A stretch of 33,300 nt of DNA. Origin: Candidatus Poseidoniia archaeon (lineage in GTDB: Archaea > Thermoplasmatota > Poseidoniia > MGIII > CG-Epi1). Below the pieces are notes generated by a model. The model did not search any database and was not told the origin of the DNA. It saw nothing but the letters and a program-made list of their open reading frames with translations. Below, piece by piece: positions 19,677 to 31,187 of the stretch; position 1 is the first letter of the stretch, and each line of letters opens with the position of its first letter. Where the stretch lies: assembly GCA_022449785.1 (NCBI GenBank), contig JAKURQ010000008.1:1-33300 (forward strand). The letters run 5' to 3'. The translations under genes and the position numbers were made by a program.

Positions 19677-22265
19677 TTGACTCCTGAAAATACAGATACA
19701 ATTTTGAAGATAAGCTTGGAGAAAGAGATGCGGAAATCCTATCTGGATTACGCTATGTCAGTTATTGTAGGTAGAGCACTTCCTGATGCTAGAGATGGAC
19801 TAAAACCAGTTCACCGCAGAGTTCTTTACGCTATGAAGGAGATGGGTTCCGGTTCCAGATCACCATACAAAAAATCTGCAAGGATAGTAGGTGATACTAT
19901 GGGGAAGTATCATCCACATGGCGATCAAGCAATTTACGACACCATGGTTCGAATGGCTCAGAGTTTTTCCTTGCGTTATCCTTTGGTCGATGGTCAAGGC
20001 AATTTTGGTTCTATTGATGGCGATAAAGCTGCAGCTATGCGTTATACAGAATCTCGCTTGGCAACAATTGCAGATAGTGTTTTAGCAGATTTAGATGAGG
20101 AGACAGTTGATTTTAGAGATAATTATGATGGGTCTTTACAGGAACCTTCAGTTCTTCCTGGACTTTTGCCTGGACTTTTAGTGAATGGTTCCTCAGGAAT
20201 AGCAGTTGGTATGGCTACCAATATGGCTCCACATAATCTTTCCGAGATTTCTGAGGCTCTCAATCTGTTAATCGATAATCCAGAAACTTCATTAGCTGAA
20301 ATCATGAATGTTTTGCCAGGTCCTGATTTTCCAACAGGAGGCTCGATTATGGGTCGTAAAGGAATTTTTGATGCATATAGTGAGGGCCGAGGTTCTGTAA
20401 AGATTAGAGGGAAGATTGTCAATGAATCTACTGAAAAGAATGAGTATCTAGTAGTTACAGAGATACCATTTTTAGTTCAAAAAAATAGACTTCTAGAAGA
20501 CGTTTCTAAGATGGTTAGAGATAAAAAAATTGAAGGTATTAGAGATATTAGAGATGAATCTGATCAAAAAGGCATGAGGGTCGTTTTTGAACTAAAGAGA
20601 GATGCTTCACCTGTAATCGTTGAAAATCAATTATACAAACATTCAGTTTTAGAAACTAGTTTTGCAATTAATAATGTTGCACTTGTTAAAGGTCAACCAA
20701 GGCGTATGGGAATTATAGAGCTTTTACAAGTCTATTTAGATCATCGTAAAGAGATAATAACGCGTAGGACGCAGTTTAGGCTTAGAAAAGCAGAGGAAAG
20801 AGCTCACATTGTTGAAGGTTTGTTGCTAGCTTTATCAAAATTAGATAAAGTAATTGCCTTTATTCGAAAAGCAGCAGGACGTGATGCAGTCATTGAAGGG
20901 TTACAGAAAAATTTCAAACTTAGTGAAGTTCAATCGAAAGCTATAGCCGACATGCGTCTTTACCAACTTTCACAACAGGATGTTCAGGAAAGAGAAAACG
21001 AGTTAGAAGAATTGAAGAAGACTATGAGTGAATTAAAATCAATATTATCTGATTCTGCTAAAGTTTCTGCAATAATTAAAGAAGAATTAGCTGGGTTGAA
21101 TGAAAAATATGGTGATGAAAGACGAACATTGATTTCAGACTTTGATGGTGATTTAGCTACTGAGGATTTGATACCGCGCTCTCAGGTCGTAGTAATGCGA
21201 ACACATGAGGGTTATATCAAGCGAGTGGGCTTAGAAGAATACCAAGCACAAAATCGTGGTGGTAAGGGCCGTATTGGAATTAAAGCTAAAGAAGGAGATT
21301 TCCCTGTTGAATTGTATTCTATGAGTTCCCATGATCACCTACTTTTCTTTACAACTTCAGGCAGTATGTACTTTTTGAAAGCTTGGCAAATACCTGATGT
21401 TTCTAGATATTCTAAAGGGACTCCTTTGGTTCAACTCTTACAAAAGCTAGATGAAGGTCGTCAATCAAAAGATGAAAAAGTATTGTGTATGCTTCCAGTA
21501 GCAAATATTAGCGGAGATGGCCATTATTTCTTGTTTGCAACAAAGAATGGAATAATAAAGAAAACTCGTTTAGAAGAATATTCTTCAAGAATTCAGAGAG
21601 CATGGGCTCGAGATCAGGGTTTCAGGGCGATTACTCTAAAAGAGAATGATGAATTAGTGGGAGTTGATATTTCTGAAGGAGATAGTCAGGTCATGCTTGC
21701 AACTAAAGGAGGAATGGCAAATCGATTCTCTGAAGGTGAAATTCGAATTGTAGGTAGAAATGGTCAAGGAGTTATCGGTATGCGCTTGAAAGAAAATGAT
21801 GCAGTTATTGGTATGAGTTTAGTAAATGATGAAGATTTACTACTAACAATAACTCAGAAGGGTTATGGTAAAAGAGCAGAGGCAGGCAATTATAGATTGA
21901 CTAGACGTGGAGCTAAGGGCGTTCAGAACATTAAGGTTGATGAAAAGAGTGGTAATGTTGTAGCTACTTTAACGCCAGGCAACGCAAATCAGATTCTAGC
22001 TACAACTTCATCAGGTAAAGTTATCCGTACGCATATCGAAAGTATAAGGCAGATTGCAAGGGTTGGTCGTGGAGTTAAAGTGATGTCTGTTGATGAGAAT
22101 GAAGAGGTTGTTGCAGTTGCTTTACATGACGAAGACGATGAAGAGAGAAATGTTGACGTGGCACCTGAGAGTGAAGAATTATGTCCAGAATGTGGTGTTG
22201 GTAAATTAGTTCTTGATGGTGAAAAATATATCTGTGGCACTTGTGGATTAATTAAGGATGCGTGA
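19677..22265 (+). CDS. gyrA: DNA gyrase subunit A with C-terminal C4 zinc-ribbon-like tail
   Basis: TTG start; [33 protein letters not shown], active-site [21 protein letters not shown], beta-pinwheel [10 protein letters not shown] GyrA-box-like; ends [27 protein letters not shown]. Confidence 0.96.
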
Positions 22266-23990: not shown

Positions 23991-25325
23991 ATGAGTTCAA
24001 TAGGTAGTCCTGCAGATATAGAGTCTGCTAAAGGTAAGCTAGGAGTCCTTATGCCCGGTTTAGGTGCAGTAAGTACTACGTTTATTGCAGGTACCTTGGC
24101 CATTCGAAAAGGAATCTCAAGCCCTATTGGTTCATTAACACAAATGGGTTCATTACGTCTTGGAAAAAGGACAGATAATAATGAAGTTGAAATTAAGAAT
24201 TTTGTTCCACTATCTAGTTTAGATGATTTAGTATTTGGAGGCTGGGATATTTTTGAAGATAATTGCTATGAGGCAGCAGTAAATGCAGGAGTCATAGACA
24301 CGAAATTATTAGATCAAGTTAAAGATGAATTATCATCAATCAAACCAATGAAAGCCGTTTTCGACAAACATTTTGTTAAAAAATTAGATGGCACATATGT
24401 CAAATCAGTTAAGGGTCATAGAGCCAGAATAGAGGCACTAAGGCAAGACATTAGAGATTTCAAAAAGAAAAACAATGCTGAAAGAGTAGTAATGGTCTGG
24501 TGTGGAAGTACAGAAGTTTATCAAGAACCGAAAGGTTCAGTCTACGACACATTAGAATCTTTTGAAAAAGCTCTGGATGATGATGAAACATCAATAGCAC
24601 CTTCAATTCTCTATGCTTATGCTGCAATTAAAGAAGGAATACCATATGCAAATGGTGCCCCCAATCTTTCAGTTGATTTTCCTGCAATGTACTCTCTAGC
24701 AGCTCAAGAGGGTGTGCCAATCGCAGGTAAAGACTTCAAAACAGGTCAAACACTTATGAAAACTATTCTAGCACCAGGTTTCAAAGCTCGAAGAATAGGT
24801 ATTGATGGTTGGTTTTCAACAAATATTTTGGGTAATAGAGACGGAGAAGTTTTGGATGACCCTGAATCATTTAAAACAAAAGAAGTTTCAAAATTAGGAG
24901 TTTTAGAAGAAATATTAGAACCGGAAAAATATCCGGAGTTATATGGTGATTTGTACCATAAAGTTCGTATCAATTACTATCCGCCTCGTGGCGATAATAA
25001 GGAAGGTTGGGACAATATTGACATCAAAGGATGGTTGGGCTATCCAATGCAAATTAAAGTTGACTTCTTATGCAGAGATTCAATTTTGGCAGCACCTATT
25101 GTTCTTGATTTAGCCTTATTTTTGGATTTAGCTAAAAGATCAGGTATGCATGGAATCCAAGAATGGTTGTCCTTCTATTTCAAATCTCCAATGTGTAAAC
25201 CTGATTTGTATCCAATGCATGATTTATTTGCTCAAAAAGTCAAATTAGAAAATACTCTTCGCCATTTGATGGGCGAGACTCTCATTACACACCTTGGTTT
25301 AGATTATTACTACGAAGAGGATTGA
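23991..25325 (+). CDS. ino1: myo-inositol-1-phosphate synthase
   Basis: GVLMPGLGAVSTTFIAGTLAIRKG, FGGWDIFEDNCYEAA, WCGSTEVYQEP, PYANGAPNLSVDFPA, GKDFKTGQTLMKTILAPGFKARRIGIDGWFSTNILGNRDGEVL. Confidence 0.95.
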   Translation: MSSIGSPADIESAKGKLGVLMPGLGAVSTTFIAGTLAIRKGISSPIGSLTQMGSLRLGKRTDNNEVEIKNFVPLSSLDDLVFGGWDIFEDNCYEAAVNAGVIDTKLLDQVKDELSSIKPMKAVFDKHFVKKLDGTYVKSVKGHRARIEALRQDIRDFKKKNNAERVVMVWCGSTEVYQEPKGSVYDTLESFEKALDDDETSIAPSILYAYAAIKEGIPYANGAPNLSVDFPAMYSLAAQEGVPIAGKDFKTGQTLMKTILAPGFKARRIGIDGWFSTNILGNRDGEVLDDPESFKTKEVSKLGVLEEILEPEKYPELYGDLYHKVRINYYPPRGDNKEGWDNIDIKGWLGYPMQIKVDFLCRDSILAAPIVLDLALFLDLAKRSGMHGIQEWLSFYFKSPMCKPDLYPMHDLFAQKVKLENTLRHLMGETLITHLGLDYYYEED

Positions 25326-26335
25326 TGAGAGCAGCCGTCGTAACAAAACACGGAAGTCCAGATAGATTTGAACTTCAAGAATTACCAACACCAACACCAG
25401 GCCCTGGTGAGGTTTGCATAAGAGTTTCAAAAGCTGGAATTAATTTTGCAGATATTCTTTCACGTATGGGTCTCTATCCTGGAGCTCCTAATCCACCATT
25501 TACTCCAGGTATGGAGGTTTCAGGTACAATTCATGAATTAGGACCAGATGTCAAAGGATTCAAGAAAGGAGATAGAGTTGTTGGTTCTGGAACAAATGGA
25601 GGCTATTCAACACATACTATTGCTAATTCAAAAGGCGTTTTCAAGATTCCAGAAAATATTTCTTTTGAGGTTGCAGCAGCCTTTCCAGCAGTGTATTTCA
25701 CTTCATATTTGATGGTTATTCATCCAGGAGCTCTGCAAAAAGGAGAATCTATTTTGATTCATGGAGTTGCAGGAGGTGTAGGTCTTGCTTCTATTGAATT
25801 AGCAAAGATAGCAGGAGCAAAAACAATATTTGGTACCTGCTCTCCAGAAAAACATGATTTTGTTCGTGATAAAGGAGTTTTACCAGTAGATAAAGATAAT
25901 TTTCTAGCCGAGATAATGGAATGGACTGATAATAAGGGCGTAGAATTAGTTTTAGATCCTATAGGTGGCGAACATCTAATGCAATCATATCGTTGTTTAG
26001 GATCAGGAGGAAGAGTTTGCTCATTTGGTATCTCAGATATGGCTCCAGGCAAGAAGAAAAGTAATTGGAAACGCTTCAAGTCATGGATGACATTCCCTAA
26101 ATTTGATCCTTTGAGGATGATGACTAGCAATAGAGGTGTTTTTGGAATACATTTAGGACGCTGGAAGAATTTAGAACATTTAGAAAAAGCAAGAGACGAT
26201 TTGATGAAGTGGATTGAAAAAGGTAAAATCAATCCTCATGTTGATAAAGTATTTCCTGCTGAACAGGTGGCAGACGCCCATCATTATATTCAAGATAGGC
26301 AAAATATCGGAAAGGTATTATTAGACTTTGAATAG
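25322..26335 (+). CDS. MDR-superfamily quinone oxidoreductase / alcohol dehydrogenase-like protein
   Basis: GINFADILSRMGLYPGAPNPPFTPGMEVSGTI, GDRVVG, ILIHGVAGGVGLASIELAKIAGA, VFPAEQVADAHHYIQDRQNIGKVLLDFE. ATGA overlap with ino1. Confidence 0.9.
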   Translation: MMRAAVVTKHGSPDRFELQELPTPTPGPGEVCIRVSKAGINFADILSRMGLYPGAPNPPFTPGMEVSGTIHELGPDVKGFKKGDRVVGSGTNGGYSTHTIANSKGVFKIPENISFEVAAAFPAVYFTSYLMVIHPGALQKGESILIHGVAGGVGLASIELAKIAGAKTIFGTCSPEKHDFVRDKGVLPVDKDNFLAEIMEWTDNKGVELVLDPIGGEHLMQSYRCLGSGGRVCSFGISDMAPGKKKSNWKRFKSWMTFPKFDPLRMMTSNRGVFGIHLGRWKNLEHLEKARDDLMKWIEKGKINPHVDKVFPAEQVADAHHYIQDRQNIGKVLLDFE

Positions 26336-26355
26336 TTCCAAAGTTTTTTGGCATT
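26336..26355 (+). repeat. Copy 1 of 20-bp element TTCCAAAGTTTTTTGGCATT directly upstream of a TATA-like box (CTTTAAAA)
   Basis: Exact 20-nt identity with 26784-26803; contains inverted repeat CCAAA-gttt-TTTGG. Confidence 0.95.
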
Positions 26356-26385
26356 ACTTTAAAACGGGTTTACCGTTATTACATT

Positions 26386-26778
26386 ATGTCTGACATTAAT
26401 GTCAAATTGAAGCATAATTTGGATGACGCAGACAAATTATTTAGGATTCTTTTCGCTTCGATTAAGATTGGAGCTCCAGCATCAAAAAGGAAAATTGCAG
26501 ACGTTGCAGATCTCTCATCACAAATAGTTGATTATCACATTGACAAATTAGTCGCTAATGGTCAAATGTTAGTCATCAATTCACAATACATGGCCCAAAC
26601 CGCGTTCTCTGATAAGAGAATTTACAAATTTCTTAAAGATAGTGTAATTACGCAAGATTTAGTCGACAAAATAGCAGATGGGATTGATTTTTCACAGTCT
26701 GAAGTGCAAGAAAATAAAGTAATTGAAGAAGCTATTTTGACTTTACTAAAACTGTTCACAATAGAGTTGAAAGAATGA
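26386..26778 (+). CDS. Small winged-helix/HTH-like protein, probable transcriptional regulator
   Basis: FRILFASIKIGAPASKRKIADVADLSSQIVDYHIDKLVANGQMLVINSQYM resembles a wHTH (helix-turn-helix plus wing) arrangement; TATA-like box ~25 nt upstream of ATG. Confidence 0.6.
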   Translation: MSDINVKLKHNLDDADKLFRILFASIKIGAPASKRKIADVADLSSQIVDYHIDKLVANGQMLVINSQYMAQTAFSDKRIYKFLKDSVITQDLVDKIADGIDFSQSEVQENKVIEEAILTLLKLFTIELKE

Positions 26779-26783
26779 TAAAA

Positions 26784-26803
26784 TTCCAAAGTTTTTTGGC
26801 ATT
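26784..26803 (+). repeat. Copy 2 of 20-bp element TTCCAAAGTTTTTTGGCATT directly upstream of a TATA box (CTTTTATATA)
   Basis: Exact 20-nt identity with 26336-26355; TATA box at about 26804-26812. Confidence 0.95.
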
Positions 26804-26834
26804 CTTTTATATACAAAAAAGATTTTTTCAACTT

Positions 26835-27029
26835 ATGAGACGAAGACATATGCTAGGAACGCACGACAAAACACTTTGTGGTTGGTCAGTAACTACAGGT
26901 GAGCTAACTCAATTGAAAAAAATGGACAACAAGTACGTCAATTGTAAACGTTGTTTAGAAAAGTTAGATGCTGCAAATAATATTTCTTCAGATCTGAGTA
27001 AAAATAAAAGAGCTGTACCTAATGTCTAA
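26835..27029 (+). CDS. Small Cys/His-containing (putative zinc-binding) protein
   Basis: MRRRHMLGTHDKTLCGWSVTTGELTQLKKMDNKYVNCKRCLEKLDAANN... has H/H/C + CxxC spacing. Start taken as ATG 26835 because promoter copy 2 lies inside the longer track ORF (26775). Confidence 0.6.
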   Translation: MRRRHMLGTHDKTLCGWSVTTGELTQLKKMDNKYVNCKRCLEKLDAANNISSDLSKNKRAVPNV

Positions 27030-30251: not shown

Positions 30252-31187
30252 ATGTCACCAACGTATTCAGAGTATCTTAGACTGGAGGAGTTGCTCAAAT
30301 TACAGACAGGTGTCAAAGGTGGAAAAAGGTCAATTAGTAACGATGAGTTGCATTTTATTTTAGTTCATCAAAATTTTGAGTTATGGTTTAAATTAATAAT
30401 TAATGAACTAAGAAGTACAAGGGATATTTTAGCTTCAGATTATGTTGAAGAAACTAAACTTCCACAAGCAGTTCATCACATGAATAGAGTTATTGAAACA
30501 TTCAACTTGATGGCACAGCAATGGAAAGTGATGGAAACTCTTGAACCACAGGATTTTCTCAACTTTAGGGATGAGCTTGGAACTGCATCTGGTTTTGAAT
30601 CATTTCAGATGAGAGAAATGGAAGCTCTTATGGGCAAAAAATGGATTGATGGTAAACCTGCAGGGAAAGATGATTCCAATGAAAAATCTTTGTATGAAGT
30701 AACTTGTGATTGGCTTGAAAGAACACCCATTCAAGGGTCTACTTCAGCCTCACCTGATGATGAAAACCAGGTAAATGGATTCATTAGTGAATACCTCGCA
30801 GCACACAAAAAACTGTATCCAGACACACATCAAGATGCAGTTACTTTCTTTGAAGAAGATTCATCTTTACGACGCAGACGTGCAGGATTAGTTTTCATAG
30901 AATCCTATCGTGAACTTCCTTTGCTAGCCTGGCCACGTAAGTTGATTTCTACACTTATTGAATTAGAAGAATCAATGATTCTCTGGCGAAGTGCACATGC
31001 ACGCATGGTGGAGCGTATGATAGGTAGAAGAATAGGAACAGGCGGTTCATCAGGAGTTGATTATTTAGATATGACAACAAAATATCGAGTTTTTATTGAT
31101 CTCTGGTCAGTTCGTAGTGTTTTGATTAAGAAGGAAGCATTACCGCCTCTTCAAAATCCAGATTTTTATGAGTTTAAAGGAGAATAA
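30252..31187 (+). CDS. kynA: Tryptophan 2,3-dioxygenase
   Basis: LHFILVHQNFELWFKLIINELRSTRD, FLNFRDELGTASGFESFQ, LWRSAHARMVERMIGRRIGTGGSSGVDYL: active-site His, Arg, heme-ligand His and GTGGSSG all retained relative to bacterial TDO. Confidence 0.93.
   Translation: MSPTYSEYLRLEELLKLQTGVKGGKRSISNDELHFILVHQNFELWFKLIINELRSTRDILASDYVEETKLPQAVHHMNRVIETFNLMAQQWKVMETLEPQDFLNFRDELGTASGFESFQMREMEALMGKKWIDGKPAGKDDSNEKSLYEVTCDWLERTPIQGSTSASPDDENQVNGFISEYLAAHKKLYPDTHQDAVTFFEEDSSLRRRRAGLVFIESYRELPLLAWPRKLISTLIELEESMILWRSAHARMVERMIGRRIGTGGSSGVDYLDMTTKYRVFIDLWSVRSVLIKKEALPPLQNPDFYEFKGE

Follow-up and report, generated by a model that had tools for sequence, protein, structure and literature searches.

A palindromic element in fixed register with the TATA box marks a putative secreted-protein regulon in marine group III archaea

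When an exact 20-bp repeat stands in front of two neighbouring promoters with a small regulator-like gene between them, the question is whether the repeat is an operator and, if so, which protein reads it and which genes it controls. The window analysed here is a 33,300-nt stretch of DNA from a genome most closely related to marine group III euryarchaeota (Poseidoniia), and all features of the locus described below lie on the + strand. The repeat, TTCCAAAGTTTTTTGGCATT, is found exactly at 26336-26355 and 26784-26803, as a sequence-only reading of this DNA had reported. Copy 1, with its core CCAAA-N4-TTTGGCA at 26338-26353, belongs to the promoter of a gene for a 130-aa winged helix-turn-helix (wHTH) protein (26386-26778), the candidate autoregulator, and is abutted by the stop codon of a quinone-oxidoreductase-like ADH gene (25322-26335) that is a syntenic neighbour and not a demonstrated target. 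Copy 2 belongs to the promoter of an operon encoding a 64-aa Cys/His mini-protein (26835-27029) and a beta-propeller protein (PF09826; 27022-29703) with a hydrophobic N-terminal segment; the overlap of these two genes, also recognized earlier, extends over 8 nt from the propeller start (27022) to the mini-protein stop (27029). The TATA-like boxes CTTTAAAA (26357-26364), in fixed register to the GGCA of copy 1, and CTTTTATATA (26804-26813) sit 22-31 nt ahead of the ATG codons at 26386 and 26835, so that the leaderless-type geometry suggested for the two promoters is borne out at both, and the inverted repeat CCAAA-N4-TTTGG gives each an operator-like palindrome, again as proposed. The mini-protein start at 26835 is supported because MRRRHM is the conserved N-terminus in all genomes of the window's genus; a longer 84-aa ORF from 26775 shows no conservation across the same genomes. 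Elsewhere in the window are genes for DNA gyrase subunit A (19677-22265; PF00521, PF03989), which ends in a Cys4 zinc-ribbon-like tail, and for tryptophan 2,3-dioxygenase (30252-31187; PF03301), which lies near the locus in relatives of the same genus and is also present in the family genome G015.

With up to three mismatches allowed, the 20-mer has two matches within the window against 0.02 expected from shuffles, and a third copy is absent at this stringency from the whole 1.04-Mb marine group III assembly; in the 374 kb of this genome that were scanned for it, CCAAA-N4-TTTGG likewise occurs at the two known sites alone. The objection that the element may simply be a motif common throughout the genome therefore fails. 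The remaining palindromes in the genus with two mismatches fall mostly within coding regions, and those recurring at the same place in several genomes were set aside as conserved coding sequence.

Conservation was followed through 21 genomes of the family (f1), which includes the genus of the window genome (g1), a sister genus (g2) and the genus of G015 (g3), and through a comparison set of 125 other Poseidoniia, for a total of 146. The wHTH gene is present in 12 of 14 g1 genomes, the window's own included, and in four of six g2 genomes; it is single-copy wherever it occurs, and a profile search of all 146 genomes yielded no credible member beyond the family. The gene is missing from five family genomes, all of them incomplete (60-79%). 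In all 12 g1 loci the element precedes both the wHTH and the mini-protein genes, with 36-38 nt from GGCA to ATG. It is conserved as CCAAA-N4-TTTGGCA; the left arm varies in G006, G011 and G013, and in three species the wHTH gene has a perfect TGCCAAA-N4-TTTGGCA. The identical 20-bp copies are peculiar to the window genome; elsewhere it is this shorter form and the TATA register that are conserved. Gene order in g1, wherever contigs reach, is myo-inositol-1-phosphate synthase, ADH, wHTH, mini-protein and propeller, so that element, TATA box and gene order are kept in every orthologous locus of the genus. The four g2 members keep the order from ADH to propeller, and of their two promoters that of the mini-protein gene alone retains the TTTTGGC(A/G) half, in the form AAAAAATTTTTTTTGGC(A/G); copy 2 is accordingly the one whose promoter-proximal half is conserved in both genera. 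As the g2 wHTH promoter is without the element, autoregulation would not be universal. The expected co-occurrence of element and wHTH gene was nonetheless found in all 16 genomes that bear the gene.

The family genome G015 provides a locus from which the gene is missing. There the assembled order is myo-inositol-phosphate synthase, an unrelated 123-aa ORF and the propeller gene, without ADH, wHTH or mini-protein genes, and the propeller promoter is without TTTGGCA; no wHTH gene was found in the 979 kb examined. The 123-aa ORF (L228:11053-11421), which occupies the ADH/wHTH/mini-protein position, is possibly HTH-like by eye, but has no Pfam match and does not resemble the wHTH family in a profile comparison. 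Two weak matches to the element occur in this genome, on contigs C2 and C10. In composition C2 resembles the window more than it does the main contigs of G015, and its proteins, a CARDB protein among them, are up to 87% identical to those of g1, compared with a main-contig median of 57%; the origin of C10 is less clear. Both matches probably lie on contaminant contigs, 6% contamination being reported for the assembly. More generally, C2, C4 and C11 (L203, L205, L212) look like contaminants from the window's genus, with window-like composition and protein identity often of 80-90% against the same median.

The element extends to other genes of the family. Matches to CAAA-N1-8-TTTGGCA-N1-6-TATA are present in 15 of the 21 family genomes, and the reversed-pattern control gave none. 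Training a sequence-only profile on the wHTH and mini-protein promoters gave 37 matches at E<=1e-3, all within the family, 28 of them at the two training promoters and nine elsewhere; in the 125 other Poseidoniia genomes there was no match at this threshold, the best having E 0.002. All nine untrained promoters precede genes for secreted or surface proteins, as predicted from hydrophobic N-termini and domains. A second profile, together with protein searches, extended the target list to five families: acidic "LEGKAL" proteins, where the element stands at all six orthologues that protein search found in g1 and at two in g2; two CARDB families, in one of which the element turns over, two genomes having it intact and one in degenerate form, while in several others it was not seen; a repeat-rich acidic protein (MMKK..ILLFSP); and a YHYH/cupredoxin protein whose gene lies just after a tRNA-like sequence. 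Among the targets found are putatively secreted CARDB, LEGKAL, YHYH/cupredoxin and propeller proteins. The window genome, whose assembly is 86% complete, has no detectable LEGKAL or first-CARDB gene and shows the two known sites alone. The sequence-only reading, in which the wHTH protein controlled itself and the mini-protein/propeller operon from two promoters, was right in placing the element at both and too narrow in its scope, given at least five further secreted-protein families in relatives; what it called a two-promoter regulon is a family-wide one of predicted secreted-protein genes.

The position of the element relative to the TATA box is rigid. In 46 of 46 scorable sites the box lies at an identical offset from GGC, and the 47th has TTATG there, even though the search pattern had allowed 1-6 nt between TTTGGCA and TATA. 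The promoter-proximal TTTGGCA half hardly varies across the 47 sites, of which 29 have a distal half at most one mismatch away from CCAAA. With its GGCA at -8 to -5 relative to TATA, the palindromic site stands at a conserved distance from BRE and TATA and overlaps the BRE position in part. Background promoters from 374 kb of the window genome (n=25) favour A at -5 to -3 of TATA, whereas the element promoters read ATT there; the BRE at the element promoters looks poor on this small background sample of 25 promoters. The sites, their conservation, their register and the genes that follow them are read directly from the genomes.

That the first gene encodes an HTH-like protein had been suggested from its translation, and the structural predictions agree. 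The AF2 model (mean pLDDT 80.8) has helices at 12-28, 34-41 and 45-57 and strands at 61-64 and 67-70, an H-H-H-E-E order, followed by C-terminal helices that include a long one; among the 16 orthologues, 12 match HTH_24, at best with E 3.7e-5, and HTH_20 matches were also obtained. The window protein is by this model an archaeal wHTH regulator in its predicted fold. Its recognition-helix region, SSQ(I/L)VDYH, is nearly invariant across two genera. Foldseek with the model gave weak top matches, all with E>0.01, and sequence searches of Pfam, NCBIfam and PDB returned no named family. Adjacency, single copy, shared distribution and the lack of both gene and element at the G015 locus all point to the wHTH protein as the probable binder.

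The mini-protein has four invariant residues (H5, C15, C37 and C40) in a His/Cys arrangement similar to that of the small zinc proteins of zf-HC3 (PF16827); it scores 15.8 bits against this family, below the curated cut-off of 25, and is not filed as a member. The best zf-HC3 E-value, 0.0014, occurs among mini-protein paralogues. These paralogues (L062-L070; MRRRHLPS..TLCGHSAT..VTCKRCL) have another palindrome in front of them, GTGCCTAA-N2-TTAGGCAC, which lies some 15 nt ahead of TATA, a helical turn farther upstream than TTTGGCA does; several of the paralogues adjoin EVE-domain-like and flavodoxin-like genes. Since the mini-protein and wHTH genes always co-occur, distribution cannot separate the two as binders.

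The reading favoured here, in which about even confidence can be placed, is that the element is the site of a small marine group III regulon whose wHTH dimer regulates its own gene and activates by helping TFB. The site would be the palindrome TGCCAAA-N4-TTTGGCA, with the TTTGGCA half at a fixed TATA register and GGCA touching the BRE, and the adjacent wHTH protein, as a dimer, would most likely bind it. The protein would then control its own gene and the mini-protein/beta-propeller operon, as well as other secreted or surface protein genes, species by species, most likely by activation, with the bound dimer aiding TFB at promoters whose BRE is without the usual A-run. An autoregulated activator is favoured because the rigid register, next to an apparently poor BRE, recalls TFB-RF1 and EarA; the identity of the binder, its binding as a dimer and the sign of regulation are what we infer. 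Repression by BRE occlusion is the main rival and ranks next, possible yet on the unlikely side: the same wHTH dimer at the same operator would cover the BRE and block TFB, resulting in negative autoregulation and signal-driven derepression of the secreted-protein genes. Autorepression is common for small wHTH regulators, a habit that counts in favour of this alternative, as does the location of GGCA within the BRE region; however, a single TATA register in all scorable sites exceeds what blocking would require, and the BRE region appears poor as well, albeit in a small sample.

It is more doubtful that the binder is something other than the wHTH protein, be it the zinc mini-protein, another regulator, or a specialised TFB that reads the element as a variant BRE. 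The conserved part consists mainly of the TATA-proximal half plus TATA, the mini-protein paralogues have a palindrome of their own in front, and the mini-protein gene accompanies the wHTH gene, all of which would suit such a binder; yet the palindrome flanks the single-copy wHTH gene on both sides in 12 g1 genomes, the symmetric TGCCAAA/TTTGGCA arms suit a dimer rather than TFB, and the recognition-helix region is hardly altered between the two genera. A further idea, speculative and less probable again, is that TTTGGCA-N5-TATA forms a dedicated marine group III secretome promoter class, a variant BRE that a specialised TFB or a zinc mini-protein reads, either alongside the wHTH protein or in its place; if true, the wHTH/mini-protein pair would serve as control module for a surface regulon particular to the lineage. 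A functionless T-rich stretch, arising by chance or duplication, has next to no probability even though the element is T-rich and its copies are exactly identical in the window genome alone, as the shuffle expectation, the genus-wide conservation, the empty reversed-pattern controls and the specificity of the profile to the family all speak against it, and chance duplication is refuted by conservation across genomes.

Standing at one fixed distance before a small regulator gene, its neighbour operon and several secreted-protein genes, the element has the look of a conserved switch by which uncultured ocean archaea may control their cell surface, with a candidate only for the switch protein. 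No member of marine group III has, to our knowledge, been cultured, and no described regulon for the group was found in the literature searched. A defined operator, a candidate regulator and a list of predicted secreted or surface targets make the system testable in vitro without culturing.

Among known systems, CsmR of Haloferax volcanii (PMC13286277) is unrelated in lineage and targets to the marine group III regulon. EarA, the euryarchaeal archaellum regulator, is a wHTH activator of cell-surface genes thought to recruit TFB to a weak BRE (PMC5512572); its targets are different, and it is likened to the window wHTH protein by description. In Pyrococcus and other Thermococcales, TFB-RF1 (PF1088) binds a palindromic site directly ahead of weak BREs, where it recruits TFB (PMC5937170). 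That short palindrome, TCTGAANTTCAGA, keeps a conserved spacing to the poor BRE and TATA box that follow it, and TFB-RF1 controls its own operon plus one further locus in a phylogenetically conserved network. PF1088 and the window wHTH protein are likened by promoter layout and regulon, and they differ in palindrome and in targets, an ABC transporter in the one and secreted proteins in the other; moreover, the TFB-RF1 site is wholly upstream of the BRE, whereas the marine group III GGCA touches the BRE position. The present element adds a conserved case in which the site of an archaeal regulator keeps to a single register next to the BRE, and the regulon is of a known archaeal kind, while the protein family and the regulon itself are new.
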